Assembly: GCF_027531815.1 (NCBI RefSeq)
Contig: NZ_JAPZSK010000013.1
Coordinates: 1-64,000 of the forward strand
DNA length: 64,000 nucleotides
Reading direction: 5' to 3'
From: Gemmatimonas sp.
GTDB lineage: Bacteria; Gemmatimonadota; Gemmatimonadetes; Gemmatimonadales; Gemmatimonadaceae
Shown here: positions 39,004 to 42,431 of the stretch, in pieces
How the letters are laid out: each line of letters begins with the position of its first letter
Position numbering within the stretch: position 1 is the stretch's first letter
Notes under the pieces: model-generated
Seen by the model: only the letters and a program-made list of their open reading frames with translations
Databases searched by the model: none
Told to the model about the DNA's origin: nothing
Program-made: the position numbers and the translations under genes

Positions 39004-39918
39004 TCACCCGAACAGCCGCGTCCGCGCTGCTTCGCTCAGCGCCACCACCGCCGGGTGCGCCAGCTTGCGCTCGGCACTGATGGCGTAGAAGCGCTCCCGG
39101 ACGTCGGGGAGTCGGCCCACCACACGCACATGATAGGCGCGCCGGATCTGCGCCTCCACCACCGATGGCGCGGCGAAGAGGCCCATGCCCTCCTGGCCGA
39201 ACACCTGGAGGAGCGCCACGTCTTCGGCCTCGCACACCACGTCGGGGCGCACGTCCTGCGCCACACACCATGCGTCGAGGGAGCGGCGCATGGCGGTGTT
39301 GCTGGTCGGCATGATGAAGGGCGCACCGTCCAACGACGCCGGGAACTTGCGTCGATGCTTGTTCGCCAGCGCCTCCGTGCCGAACACGGTGAGGCCGCAT
39401 TCGCCAAGCAGGTGCGTGAACAGCGTGATGGGCAACCCCGGCGATGCGGGCGTATCGGTGAGGACCACGTCCAGCGCGTGCACCGCCAGGTCGGCGAGCA
39501 GCCGCTCCGTCTTGTCGATACGGCAGGTGAGGCGTAGCCCCGGCAGGGCGTCGAGCGCCGGGCGCAGCAGCCGCCAGGTGGTGAGCTTGGGGAGCGAGTC
39601 GGAGATCCCCACGACCAGTTTGGCGGGGAGTCGTGCATCACCGCGCGCAAGCGCTTCCGTGAGTTCGCGGCCCGTGCGGAACATGTCGTCGGCATAGTGG
39701 AAGACGAGATGCCCCGTTTCGGTGAGCACGAGATTGCGCCCGCGCTTGTCGAACAGCGCCGCGCCCAGAGAGCGCTCCAGCTGCTTGAGCTGCGTGCTGA
39801 TGGTGGGCTGCGTGAGGTGCAACACTTCCGTGGCGCGCGTGATGCTTCCTTCGCGCGCCACCACCCAGAAGTACAGCAGATGCTGGTAGTTGAGGGTGTT
39901 GAGGGAGAGCGGCGCCAT
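39004..39918 (-). CDS. LysR-type regulator of the NhaR group, fourth gene of the bicarbonate operon
   Basis: A 304-residue activator. The N-terminal helix-turn-helix (LNYQHLLYFWVVAREGSITR then TQPTISTQLKQLERSLG) and LFDKRGRNLVLTETGHLV match the NhaR subfamily, named after the Escherichia coli regulator of a sodium/proton antiporter. Its ATG overlaps the carbonic-anhydrase stop (TGATG), so translation is coupled. A T-N11-A palindrome at 42066-42088, upstream of the first gene of this run, is the likely binding site. Sodium-linked bicarbonate uptake by SbtA makes an NhaR-like sensor sensible. The ligand is unknown. Confidence 0.85.
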   Translation of the reverse strand: MAPLSLNTLNYQHLLYFWVVAREGSITRATEVLHLTQPTISTQLKQLERSLGAALFDKRGRNLVLTETGHLVFHYADDMFRTGRELTEALARGDARLPAKLVVGISDSLPKLTTWRLLRPALDALPGLRLTCRIDKTERLLADLAVHALDVVLTDTPASPGLPITLFTHLLGECGLTVFGTEALANKHRRKFPASLDGAPFIMPTSNTAMRRSLDAWCVAQDVRPDVVCEAEDVALLQVFGQEGMGLFAAPSVVEAQIRRAYHVRVVGRLPDVRERFYAISAERKLAHPAVVALSEAARTRLFG

Positions 39919-40649
39919 CACACGGAGACCGGCATCACCTTGCCGGTGTCGAGGTCATACACACCACCGGCAATGACGAGTGTGCCTGCCTTCACCCGTC
40001 GTGCAAGCACCGGTGATGCTTCCTTGAGAATCTCCGCCTGCAACTCGACGTTGCGCGCAATGGCCCGGTTCACGTCGCCGCCGCTTTCCTTGGCTGCGCG
40101 CCGGATGTGCTGGTACAGGGTGGAGATCTGTCCCGGCACCTCGGTCCCCGCCATGGTGGCCGACACGGCGCCGCACTTCGTGTGCCCCAGCACATACAGC
40201 ACCTGCGCCCCCAGCACCTCCGTGCCGAACTCCAGCGACCCGATGATGGCCGGATCCGCCACGTTGCCGGCGATGCGCGTCACGAAGATGTCGCCGAATC
40301 CCTGGTCGAAGACGATCTCGATGGGCACACGCGAGTCGGCGCAGCCAAGAAAGGCGGCGAAGGGCTTCTGGCCGGCCGCCACTTCCTTGAGTCGCGCCAT
40401 GTTGCGGTTGGGCGCCATGACCTGACCTTGCACGAATCGTGCGTTGCCCTCGTACAGCGCCGCGAGCGCCGCTGTGGGATCGGCATACGGGTGCGACACC
40501 GACCGCGGGGCACCGTGGCCCCACGCCGGTGTGGCCAGTGCGCCGGACGCCACACCGCCGCCCAGCAAGGCCGCCCCGGCCATCGTGGCTGAATGCAGGA
40601 AGGCGCGACGCGACGGTGTGGCTGCAGGGGGAACGTTCGAGGTGCACAT
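39918..40649 (-). CDS. Tat-exported beta-class carbonic anhydrase
   Basis: A 243-residue enzyme that interconverts carbon dioxide and bicarbonate. Zinc ligands and partners are C103 and D105 in GCADSRVP, and H156 and C159 in GHTKCGAV. The start at 40649 gives an N-terminus with twin arginines in SRRAFLHS (R14, R15), followed by a hydrophobic Ala/Gly stretch and a cleavage region near ATPAWG, so a Tat route to the periplasm is likely. It is the third gene in the sbtA-sbtB-cah-LysR run, one base from sbtB, and overlaps the LysR start. Confidence 0.92.
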   Translation of the reverse strand: MCTSNVPPAATPSRRAFLHSATMAGAALLGGGVASGALATPAWGHGAPRSVSHPYADPTAALAALYEGNARFVQGQVMAPNRNMARLKEVAAGQKPFAAFLGCADSRVPIEIVFDQGFGDIFVTRIAGNVADPAIIGSLEFGTEVLGAQVLYVLGHTKCGAVSATMAGTEVPGQISTLYQHIRRAAKESGGDVNRAIARNVELQAEILKEASPVLARRVKAGTLVIAGGVYDLDTGKVMPVSV

Positions 40650-40650
40650 G

Positions 40651-40977
40651 TCAGAGGCCTCCGGTAGGGGTGGACTGGCGGTATTTGTCACCGCGAACCA
40701 CGGCGACGTCGGACAGGTAGGCAATCACCTCGTAGTCGGTGAAGTAGCTGCGGGCGATGTGGGCGACGATGCGCTCCGCCACGTCGGGCGGGACGATGGT
40801 TTCGATGCGCACATTGATCCCCGGGATCTCCGCGGCATGCAGCGCCCGCGATCCCTGACCGCGCCCTTCGACGACGGTGAACCCGGTCGCCCCCAGGCGG
40901 CGAAGCTCCTGCGTGATACGAGGCTCCAGCACCGGCTCGGCGATGATCGTGACCAGCTTGAACGGAAAGGTGAGCAT
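40651..40977 (-). CDS. sbtB: SbtB-type PII-like regulator
   Basis: A 108-residue PII-superfamily protein. Core strands FKLVTIIAEPVLEPRITQEL, the GATGFTVVEGRGQGSR turn, VRIETIVPP and SYFTDYEVIAYLSDVAVV follow SbtB of cyanobacteria. SbtB proteins bind adenylyl nucleotides (cAMP, AMP, ATP) and gate the SbtA transporter. The C-terminal CGPxGC redox loop of cyanobacterial SbtB is missing here; the protein ends RGDKYRQSTPTGGL. It is 10 bases downstream of sbtA and one base before the carbonic anhydrase. Confidence 0.82.
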   Translation of the reverse strand: MLTFPFKLVTIIAEPVLEPRITQELRRLGATGFTVVEGRGQGSRALHAAEIPGINVRIETIVPPDVAERIVAHIARSYFTDYEVIAYLSDVAVVRGDKYRQSTPTGGL

Positions 40978-40987
40978 GACGGGAACC

Positions 40988-41980
40988 TCAGGCGGCAAGG
41001 CGCTGCGCGAGCGCGTAGTAGAGGGGAATACCGGCGAGGATGTTGAACGGGAAGGTGATCGCGAGCGCCGCCGTGAGTGAGTACGTGGGGTTCGCTTCCG
41101 GCAGGGTGAGGCGCACGGCCGGCGGTGCGGCGATGTAGCTCGCACTCGCCGCCATCGTGCCAAGCACCGCCGCGCCACTCGGCGACAGCCCCGCCCACTC
41201 ACCAAGCACCACGCCCAGCGCGCCGTGCGCGAGCGGCAGCACAATCCCGTAGCCCAGCAGGAACGGCCCCACCTTCTTGAGGTCACCGAGGCGATCGCCG
41301 GCCACCACCCCCATCTCCAACAGGAAGAGCATCAACGCTCCCTTGAAGCCGCTGTCGAAGAACGGCGATACGGCCTTCCACCCGGCTTCACCCATGAAGA
41401 AGCCGACGATCAGGCCACCCACCAGCAGAATCATCGTGCGCCCGGTGAGCACCTCGTGCAGCACGTCCTTCATACTTCCCTGAGCGGCCGCGTGGCCGCC
41501 CGCGGCGATGAGCTGCTTGTTGCGCTGAATGGCGCCAATCGCGAGCGCAATGTGAATACCGGGGCTTTCGAGCAGCGTGAGCAGCGTGGGCATGTACCCT
41601 TCCGCCGGCGCTCCCACGCGCACCATGAACTGCTGCGCGGCAATAAACGTCACGGCGCTCACCGACCCGTAGTGGGCCGCCATCCCGGCGGAGTCGCTGG
41701 CATTGAAGCGGCCCACGTACCGCATGGCCGCGTAGGCCGTCAGCGGCGTGATGCACCCCAGCAGCAGCGTCACCCCCGCGGGCGCGACGATGGCAGCGAA
41801 GCTGGCGTGTGAAAGCTCCACGCCGCCCTTCAGGCCGAGGGCGAACAGGAGGTAGATGGACAGCGCGCTGTAGATGTCCTTCGGCAGCGAGAACTCGCTC
41901 TTCACCAGGCGCGCGAAGATGCCCAGCGCGAAAGCCAGGGGAATGGGCGAGAGCAGGTTGGCCTTGAGCGTTTCGATCAT
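40988..41980 (-). CDS. sbtA: SbtA-type sodium-dependent bicarbonate transporter
   Basis: A 330-residue polytopic protein of the SbtA (DUF897) family. About ten helices in two inverted five-helix halves are visible, with short loops. Repeated motifs include SIYLLFALGLKGGVELSH in the first half and LFLLEMGVVAGDRLGD in the second, plus AAHYGSVSAVTFIAA and MAASASYIAAPPAVR, which form the substrate and sodium sites of the family. The start at 41980 is the Met before IETLKANLL. It heads a four-gene operon with SbtB, carbonic anhydrase and an NhaR-like regulator. Confidence 0.88.
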   Translation of the reverse strand: MIETLKANLLSPIPLAFALGIFARLVKSEFSLPKDIYSALSIYLLFALGLKGGVELSHASFAAIVAPAGVTLLLGCITPLTAYAAMRYVGRFNASDSAGMAAHYGSVSAVTFIAAQQFMVRVGAPAEGYMPTLLTLLESPGIHIALAIGAIQRNKQLIAAGGHAAAQGSMKDVLHEVLTGRTMILLVGGLIVGFFMGEAGWKAVSPFFDSGFKGALMLFLLEMGVVAGDRLGDLKKVGPFLLGYGIVLPLAHGALGVVLGEWAGLSPSGAAVLGTMAASASYIAAPPAVRLTLPEANPTYSLTAALAITFPFNILAGIPLYYALAQRLAA

Positions 41981-42065
41981 GGGGGGAATGGAGGGGGACG
42001 CCGGCGCCAGCAGGTGCGATCTATCACGGCCGTAGTCTGCGCAAACCCGGTGCATAATCCAAATC

Positions 42066-42088
42066 GAATGTTAGTCGCAAACACATTC
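42066..42088. promoter_or_regulatory. LysR-type operator upstream of the sbtA operon
   Basis: GAATGT-N11-ACATTC is a perfect inverted repeat with the T-N11-A spacing of LysR-family sites (T 42071, A 42083). It lies 86-108 bp upstream of the sbtA ATG, the usual distance. The last gene of the operon encodes a LysR protein, so this is probably its site. Confidence 0.75.
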
Positions 42089-42120: not shown

Positions 42121-42141
42121 AGGCGCCACGACGTGGCGCCT
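42121..42141 (-). terminator. Rho-independent terminator of the His-rich protein gene
   Basis: 9-bp arms (AGGCGCCAC) around a 3-nt loop, with a run of A residues on the plus strand at 42116-42121, so the minus-strand transcript ends in U residues. It separates the small His-rich gene from the sbtA promoter region. Confidence 0.88.
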
Positions 42142-42167: not shown

Positions 42168-42431
42168 CTAGTGCTTCTCGCCCGCGGGAGCCGCTGCCGG
42201 CGCGTGATCCCCACCGCCGCCATGGTCGGCGGCGGCACTGTGATCGCCGCCCGCGGCATGCTTGGCCTGATCGCGCTCGTAGTACACCTGCTGCGCCATC
42301 GGATCGCGCGGGTGACGGTAGGTGTTCTTGTGGATGGTCCACGCGCCGAAACCGAGCGCCGCCGTGAAGACGCAGGTCACGAGGGCCGCGCCCCACCCCA
42401 ACTTGTTCGGATCGTACTGCTGAGCACTCAT
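42168..42431 (-). CDS. Single-span membrane protein with His-rich tail
   Basis: An 87-residue protein from ATG 42431. A short N-terminus is followed by one transmembrane helix (WGAALVTCVFTAALGFGAW). The tail is rich in His, Asp, Ala and Gly (GGDHSAAADHGGGGDHAPAA, ending GEKH), a composition that suggests weak metal binding. The region between helix and tail (HPRDPMAQQVYYERDQ) may contact a partner. I recognise no family. It has its own terminator and the next upstream gene is dinB. Confidence 0.7.
   Translation of the reverse strand: MSAQQYDPNKLGWGAALVTCVFTAALGFGAWTIHKNTYRHPRDPMAQQVYYERDQAKHAAGGDHSAAADHGGGGDHAPAAAPAGEKH

Follow-up and report, generated by a model that had tools for sequence, protein, structure and literature searches.

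A compact sbtA–sbtB–carbonic anhydrase–LysR operon with a conserved upstream palindrome in a Gemmatimonas genome carrying reaction-centre genes

The operon and its upstream palindrome

In the window (the whole 64,000-nucleotide stretch of Gemmatimonas sp. DNA analysed), a head-to-tail set of sbtA, sbtB, a beta-carbonic anhydrase (CA) gene and a LysR-type regulator gene occupies 39004–41980 of the minus strand. A 10-base gap separates sbtA from sbtB, a 1-base gap separates sbtB from the CA gene, and the LysR gene overlaps the CA stop codon; these coordinates bear out the four-gene arrangement described in the earlier note, and the operon is a compact and probably self-regulated gene set. Its features, in the direction of transcription, are as follows.

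42121–42141, minus strand: terminator-like hairpin AGGCGCCACGTCGTGGCGCCT, with a T run after it on that strand (sequence; listed inverted repeat)
42067–42087, unstranded: inverted repeat AATGT-N11-ACATT, a candidate LysR-type T-N11-A site (conservation and window scan)
40988–41980, minus strand: sbtA, Na+-dependent bicarbonate transporter family, 330 aa, non-cyanobacterial subfamily (Pfam Sbt_1)
40651–40977, minus strand: sbtB, PII-like, 108 aa, without the CGPxGC R-loop (Pfam P-II, 1.5e-21)
39918–40649, minus strand: beta-CA, 243 aa, with twin-arginine leader MCTSNVPPAATPSRRAFLHSATMAGAALLGGGVASGALATPAWGHGA (Pfam Pro_CA, 5e-34)
39004–39921, minus strand: LysR-type regulator, NhaR-like (Pfam HTH_1, 1e-20, and LysR_substrate, 2e-17)

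The terminator-like hairpin separates the sbt promoter from a gene for a small membrane protein further upstream. At the other end of the set, the ATG at 39918, within a TGATG overlap, is the likelier start of the LysR gene, because homologues align from LysR residue 2. Gemmatimonas relatives carry the identical four genes in the identical order, and the module is reordered in other Gemmatimonadota families and in Planctomycetota; Myxococcota probably also carry rearranged versions. The CA gene is missing from the operon in four close relatives (G028, G003, G011, and G015) and carries an in-frame deletion inside the catalytic region in G006, so the operon does not depend on the CA.

The palindrome, which reads AATGTTAGTCGCAAACACATT on the plus strand, is preceded by CTATAG and followed by CGATTTG on the minus strand. 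A scan of the window with one mismatch allowed gives two matches, compared with 0.28 expected from shuffles; 42067–42087 is the sole exact match in the window, and the palindrome together with its conserved flank is unique within the host genome. Across eleven relatives, the arms are conserved at 1.8 and 1.9 bits and the spacer at 0.7, and the distance from the palindrome to sbtA varies between 39 and 93 bases, so that the T-N11-A palindrome claimed earlier for the first gene is also found upstream of homologous operons. In Planctomycetota and other distant loci, a search tolerating one mismatch turned up no copy of it next to sbtA.

The carbonic anhydrase, predicted to be exported, with SbtA and SbtB

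The CA matches PDB 1YM3 (1e-37) and contains the zinc-ligand motifs CADSRVP (Cys-x-Asp-x-Arg) and GHTKCGAV (His-x-x-Cys), with ligand positions that at least 90% of 63 sequences share. In its leader (SRRAFLHSATMAGAALLGG...), SRRAFLHS is followed by a hydrophobic segment and then by an AxA site. The Pfam TAT models score 12.8 bits at best against a cut-off of 24, and 16.4 against 22.7 on a close homologue; the twin-arginine n-region, hydrophobic h-region, and AxA site are conserved in homologues, and the host genome encodes TatC, in agreement with the Tat-type signal that had been proposed. The CA is thus predicted to be exported outside the cytoplasmic membrane; a CA of cytoplasmic type would dissipate imported bicarbonate and would count against an uptake reading. 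The cyanobacterial external beta-CAs EcaB and CahB1 are likewise exported enzymes in an inorganic-carbon context. EcaB, compared here by description, has a lipoprotein attachment site and is found mostly at thylakoid membranes, where it is tied to NDH-1 (PMC10096703), whereas the window CA has a Tat-type leader and is encoded in an sbtAB operon.

The module probably scavenges bicarbonate with the aid of this CA of predicted export. An alternative, which we consider unlikely, is that the CA mainly aids diffusive CO2 entry or pH balance and that its linkage to sbtA reflects shared low-CO2 induction. Such a role has a precedent in the extracellular CA of R. palustris, which helps CO2 uptake (PMC10880623), and cyanobacteria have homologues, predicted to be exported, in loci that lack sbtA. 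A CA also occupies the same chromosomal slot without sbtA in G004 and G007, which speaks for this alternative, though the enzyme is leaderless there. Against the alternative, all 26 assessable CAs of sbtA loci carry a twin-arginine leader, compared with 9 of 14 in loci without sbtA, and the CA gene, sbtB, and sbtA are set apart by gaps of only a few bases.

SbtA matches Pfam Sbt_1 over its full length (1e-107, 360 bits, profile positions 1–308 of 308) and the solved SbtA structure PDB 7CYE (1.4e-24), and SbtB matches PDB 2CZ4 (1e-26) and the SbtB structure 6N4A (5e-10). No NCBIfam SbtA or SbtB model matched; the profile search nevertheless supports the earlier assignment of both proteins, through Sbt_1 and P-II. 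As in the Synechocystis pair slr1512–slr1513, a PII-like gene lies directly beside a transporter gene of the Sbt_1 fold family. The window operon differs from the cyanobacterial SbtA–SbtB systems in adding a predicted exported CA and a regulator, and in residing in a genome without carboxylating Rubisco.

Four residues of Synechocystis SbtA contact docked bicarbonate. Two are kept in the window SbtA, as Ser108 and Ser281 (Synechocystis Ser114 and Ser324), and two are replaced, with Leu134 and Ala284 standing in place of Tyr140 and Ser327. The window SbtA, which also has a shorter cytoplasmic loop, belongs in this respect to the non-cyanobacterial subfamily: Leu for Tyr140, Ala for Ser327, and SASYIA for SSSDIS are the rule among the non-cyanobacterial homologues examined. 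In Synechocystis SbtA, mutation of such contact residues to alanine lowers transport (PMC8352866). The replaced contacts would therefore count against bicarbonate transport by the window SbtA, and are a caveat to bicarbonate as its presumed substrate.

Some plasmid relatives of SbtA adjoin TerC genes and peroxide-type LysR genes. This setting and the replaced residues would both fit a protein that carries another small anion, or one that exports, a reading that we regard as somewhat less likely still than a diffusive or pH role of the CA. The linkage to SbtB, to a CA, and to a LysR type whose relatives adjoin SulP and DabBA argues for bicarbonate instead, as do the position of the Cereibacter sphaeroides SbtA relative, one gene away from cbbL–cbbS, and the complementary distribution of sbtA and dabA among phototrophs (see below).

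SbtB lacks both CGPxGC and a C-terminal cysteine, ending in ...VVRGDKYRQSTPTGGL, and its T-loop is about 5 residues shorter than that of cyanobacterial SbtB. The absence of CGPxGC pointed out in the earlier note is real but unremarkable, as natural SbtB proteins without it are known, among them Cyanobium SbtB, and R-loop-less SbtB responds mainly to energy state (PMC10991534).

The regulator and the carbon metabolism of the host

The best NCBIfam model for the LysR protein is NhaR (NF008284), as its description as NhaR-like would suggest, but the score of 215 bits falls just under the equivalog cut-off of 219. By profile and tree, the protein shares a LysR subgroup with E. coli NhaR, whose long branch falls inside the broad clade; the window gene differs in its sub-cut-off score and in having no adjoining nhaA. 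According to gene neighbourhoods and the tree, the LysR clade adjoins SbtA and CA genes, one orthologue neighbours SulP, and a sister clade is divergent from dabB–dabA. These neighbourhoods point to a probable role of the regulator in inorganic carbon and give no support to one in sodium. Of the two signals suggested earlier, sodium or carbon, the default sodium reading was dropped for this reason. Sensing of Na+ as by NhaR, with the operon serving sodium or pH homeostasis, is accordingly improbable: the profile match and the tree position of E. coli NhaR speak for it, and against it stand the recurrent carbon-gene neighbours and the absence of NhaA relatives, searched with E. coli NhaA, from the loci scanned, which did not include the window.

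The best PDB match of the LysR protein is 5Y2V, a Rubisco operon regulator that we take to be NdhR/CcmR (57 bits, mostly in the N-terminal half). NdhR/CcmR and CmpR are LysR-type regulators of sbtA and other cyanobacterial carbon-uptake genes (PMC10096703). The window protein is of the same type, and its profile match places it on another branch of the LysR family; its role therefore looks like a separate recruitment. A literature search of incomplete coverage found nothing relevant on NhaR-like LysR proteins with DabA, or on SbtA in Gemmatimonas or Planctomycetes.

The host, a lake-type Gemmatimonas, is likely a photoheterotroph, because its genome carries type-2 reaction centre genes. The earlier description of a heterotroph thus holds as to the lack of carboxylating Rubisco, but these genes set the host apart from an ordinary heterotroph. 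The candidate Rubisco, a 156-bit match, is a form IV-like protein with MPGFGDRMM in place of the loop-6 lysine (K334) loop, and all curated Rubisco models score below cut-off on it; a Rubisco-like protein of the IV-Photo group has been reported in G. phototrophica (PMC7844134). No phosphoribulokinase-type match was found in the host genome, where the strong PRK-family match is a sequence of uridine-kinase type, and the genome-wide check for carbon-fixation genes suggested earlier thus found neither enzyme. The genome contains a PEP carboxylase gene and a second CA without apparent signal, and lacks DabA. Within the genus, PEP carboxylase accompanies sbtA in most, not all, sbtA genomes searched, and no linkage is claimed. 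That the CO2 supplied by the module goes into an autotrophic pathway and not into anaplerosis is the most doubtful alternative, as the searches for Rubisco and phosphoribulokinase found just the Rubisco-like protein in the host and no phosphoribulokinase-type match, even though G007, of the same genus, has form II Rubisco, phosphoribulokinase and bisphosphatase genes, and dabA, and the C. sphaeroides sbtA lies near cbbL–cbbS.

Within the genus, sbtA and/or dabA is present in all 23 reaction-centre genomes and in 2 of the 7 others (Fisher 1.5e-4, kinship ignored), and the two transporter genes are complementary among phototrophs (p 0.003, kinship ignored). Outside the genus, sbtA is associated with the reaction centre at p 0.005, again with kinship ignored. 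In G180, sbtA lies about 7 kb from pufL–pufM with other genes intervening, and no cluster is claimed. DAB (DabB–DabA) replaces sbtA in sister species, and a related LysR gene is divergent from dabB. The DAB complex is a transporter of a kind unrelated to SbtA, and CO2 is described as what it acts on.

A probable bicarbonate module in a likely light-using heterotroph

Considering the gene content, its conservation, the leader type, the conserved palindrome, and the genome context, we favour, as the probable reading, an uptake and CO2-recapture module that feeds anaplerotic carboxylation in a photoheterotroph. The Tat-exported CA would equilibrate CO2 and bicarbonate beyond the cytoplasmic membrane, including CO2 leaked or respired by the cell, and SbtA would import the bicarbonate together with Na+. 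The basal-type, R-loop-less SbtB would bind adenine nucleotides and close SbtA when the energy charge falls, while the LysR protein, presumably with an effector, would bind the T-N11-A palindrome and place the operon under the control of carbon supply. Imported bicarbonate may then flow to PEP carboxylase and other bicarbonate-using carboxylases, so that light energy would pay for anaplerotic carbon in a cell with reaction centres and without Rubisco fixation. Measurements in a different aerobic phototroph, one that lacks the Calvin cycle, have documented anaplerotic CO2 fixation (PMC2749216).

A broader proposal, which we put forward tentatively, is that active uptake of inorganic carbon, unaccompanied by autotrophic fixation, may be an obligate companion of chlorophototrophy in the genus, that SbtAB with exported CA and DAB may be interchangeable, and that one NhaR-derived LysR lineage may regulate inorganic carbon generally across these phyla.

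SbtA, SbtB, and external CAs are known mainly from CO2-concentrating mechanisms, whose purpose is to supply Rubisco. In this phototroph, which does not fix carbon through Rubisco, they form a single unit with its own putative regulator. The operon offers a system for studying the role of an external beta-CA alongside one transporter, and the NhaR-like LysR annotations in these phyla may hide further carbon regulators. The genus-wide pattern suggests that bicarbonate import is needed by light-using heterotrophs, and light-driven anaplerotic CO2 assimilation becomes testable with defined genes.

The operon and its predicted products

The host genome (4.3 Mb, 27 contigs), to which a Gemmatimonas MAG (G005, locus L031; LysR identity 98%) is the nearest of the named relatives, carries the following features in the region.

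40988–41980 (−): sbtA (Pfam Sbt_1, 1e-107)
40651–40977 (−): sbtB (P-II, 1.5e-21)
39918–40649 (−): beta-carbonic anhydrase (CA) gene (Pro_CA, 5e-34)
39004–39921 (−): LysR gene (LysR HTH, 1e-20)
42067–42087: palindrome AATGT-N11-ACATT, upstream of sbtA
42121–42141: terminator-like hairpin, between the operon and the small upstream gene
42168–42431 (−): small membrane protein gene (87 aa, no Pfam match), kept just 5′ of the sbt slot in relatives

The four operon genes are spaced by 10 bases, 1 base, and an overlap of the CA stop with the LysR start, the tight arrangement described in the earlier note, and its SbtA and SbtB assignments are borne out by the profile matches. Solved relatives are SbtA (PDB 7CYE), TTHA0516 (2CZ4) and cyanobacterial SbtB for the window SbtB, 1YM3 for the CA, and the Rubisco operon regulator 5Y2V for LysR, with a score limited to the N-terminal half.

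In Synechocystis SbtA, docked HCO3− touches Ser114, Tyr140, Ser324, and Ser327 (PMC8352866). The window SbtA retains Ser114 and Ser324, and has Leu and Ala in place of Tyr140 and Ser327; replacement of these two residues is general in the aligned non-cyanobacterial homologues, some with Val, Met, or Ala, whereas both additional cyanobacterial sequences compared have the Synechocystis pattern. By this split in contact residues, the window SbtA, a candidate bicarbonate transporter, is a member of a distinct non-cyanobacterial subfamily. The Cereibacter sphaeroides relative has cbbL-cbbS one gene away, which favours inorganic carbon as the subfamily's cargo; TerC genes adjoin or lie near other plasmid relatives and do not favour it. 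The Cereibacter locus (L216, plasmid CP031752.1, 2989–6731) places sbtA beside a LysR gene and the genes for both the large and the small subunit of form I Rubisco.

As noted earlier, the window SbtB lacks the CGPxGC loop (R-loop), and its T-loop falls about five residues short of the T-loop in cyanobacterial SbtB. It shares the missing R-loop with Cyanobium SbtB, which naturally lacks it; R-loop-less SbtBs, termed basal, respond mainly to the energy state (PMC10991534).

In the CA leader, SRRAFLHS precedes a hydrophobic segment and an AxA site is present; the host genome encodes TatC. A twin-arginine motif with a hydrophobic stretch is present in all 26 assessable CAs of sbtA-holding loci, compared with twin-arginine leaders in 9 of 14 CAs from loci without sbtA (p 0.03, with L047, which has an internal deletion, and L057, which has a frameshift, entered as negatives because the script could not score them). 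The solitary CAs of genomes G004 and G007 have no leader. Judged by its leader motif, CA export via Tat, as first proposed, is well supported though not proven, the leader scoring under the cut-offs of the Pfam TAT models. The CA gene at locus L148 (G006:C9:70300–71700) is missing about 43 codons, in frame, from the stretch that separates its CADSR and GHTKCG motifs; because that MAG's PEP carboxylase gene contains stops, an assembly error is possible.

The regulator and its candidate site

Upstream regions of twelve homologous operons (the window and eleven others) were aligned, and the palindrome predicted earlier to recur there has conserved arms (1.79 and 1.92 bits per column, against 0.69 in the spacer and 0.80 in the 5′ flank), perfect in nine operons, with one mismatch in two and two mismatches in one. 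It lies anywhere between 39 and 93 bases from the sbtA start, and its conservation thus does not depend on a fixed spacing to the gene. The element also includes a conserved CAT-containing piece upstream and C-N2-TTTG immediately past the right arm. In the host genome, AATGT-N11-ACATTCNATTTG with at most two mismatches occurs once, upstream of sbtA, and the reversed-pattern control gives no match. The palindrome looks as a LysR T-N11-A site should, making it a candidate site.

The description of the regulator as NhaR-like stands in that NhaR is the nearest NCBIfam model, yet the window protein scores under the equivalog cut-off. In a tree of 54 sequences, it belongs to a well-supported 38-member clade, encoded for the most part beside SbtA or this CA, which is partly an effect of sampling, as most members were collected via the CA; E. 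coli NhaR is placed in the clade too, uncertainly and with a very long branch. The G025 orthologue adjoins a convergent SulP transporter gene, and four of the five LysRs in the sister clade are divergent from dabB-dabA, with DabA above 830 Pfam bits in both cases tested. One LysR lineage thus accompanies inorganic-carbon transporters, known or candidate, of three kinds. The second NhaR-like lineage, divergent from dabB-dabA, occurs in Gemmatimonas genomes G024, G001, G021, and G029 (L145, L147, L194, and L199). At L193, L195, L196, L197, and L198, another type of DabA (about 760 bits) clusters with a SulP-family match and, where the contig reaches far enough, a DabB-like gene.

Distribution and the link to phototrophy

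Scanning bacterial genomes with the CA protein retrieved loci from Gemmatimonadota, Planctomycetota, cyanobacteria, and a few MAGs labelled Myxococcaceae or Gammaproteobacteria, possibly misassigned. At many of the non-cyanobacterial loci, one or more of sbtA, sbtB, and a related LysR gene lie no more than a few kb away; the gene order takes several forms, and LysR is either in the operon or divergent. Because these loci were retrieved through the CA, they cannot alone test linkage, and searches for LysR orthologues and sbtA loci served as independent tests. LysR orthologues in 61 related genomes are mostly beside sbtA. Outside the genus, 17 sbtA loci were compared (one also known from an earlier search): sbtB is present at most of them, a related LysR at about six, and a match to the CA at about four, in one case a weak match. 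Within the genus, the slot, flanked by a histidine kinase gene on one side and the small membrane protein gene on the other, holds the full four-gene set, a set without CA (G028, G003, G011, and G015), CA alone (G004 and G007), or LysR alone (G010). At L028 (G012:C69), two tandem sbtA copies lie behind a more divergent LysR, with no sbtB match at the locus.

The earlier note found no Rubisco gene in the window and considered an anaplerotic role in a heterotroph possible; this holds in that the host's Rubisco-family protein has no loop-6 lysine and falls under the cut-off of every curated Rubisco model, and needs amending in that reaction-centre L and M genes are present. The host also encodes PEP carboxylase and one further beta-CA with no apparent signal; DabA was not found in its genome. 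The form IV Rubisco-like gene (L094, contig C14, 5010–6323, −) adjoins a MoeB/sulfurtransferase-type gene, and Rubisco-family matches occur in 8 of 13 genus genomes with sbtA versus 1 of 17 without. Of the PRK-family matches, one is a protein of uridine-kinase type and the other is weak.

Across 30 genus genomes searched for sbtA, the reaction centre, and dabA, all 23 with a reaction centre have sbtA and/or dabA, versus two of seven without (p 1.5e-4, kinship ignored). Of these phototrophs, 13 have sbtA (one cut by a contig end) and 15 dabA, with only five holding both, the minimum possible (p 0.003, kinship ignored). Among genomes at least 90% complete, the association remains (12/12 versus 1/5; p 0.002, kinship ignored) and the complementarity weakens (p 0.06, kinship ignored). 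Outside the genus, 5 of 17 sbtA genomes have a reaction centre, versus 16 of 265 without sbtA (p 0.005, kinship ignored). One of the two transporter-holding genomes lacking a reaction-centre match, G007, has form II Rubisco, bisphosphatase, and phosphoribulokinase genes in that order, an apparent Calvin-cycle operon (L095, G007:C337, 586–3963). Another phototrophic Gemmatimonadota genome (L225, G180:C26, 203–11291) has pufL-pufM and a cytochrome-like gene with sbtA about 7 kb downstream of them.

A probable module for inorganic-carbon uptake and recapture

The best-supported account is a module for uptake and recapture, in which the external CA would interconvert CO2 and HCO3− in the periplasm, SbtA would import HCO3− with Na+, SbtB would shut SbtA when the energy charge is low, and LysR would control transcription at the palindrome. 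As Rubisco fixation is absent, the imported HCO3− would likely go to PEP carboxylase and other bicarbonate-using carboxylases; we infer this sink, the direction of the CA in vivo, and the LysR effector. In the aerobic phototroph Roseobacter denitrificans, anaplerotic CO2 fixation supplies 10–15% of protein carbon and is not enhanced by light (PMC2749216). The individual parts of the module were already known; what is new is their joining in a single regulated unit, found in a phototroph without Rubisco fixation, the association of the regulator with several carbon transporters, and the link to phototrophy across the genus.
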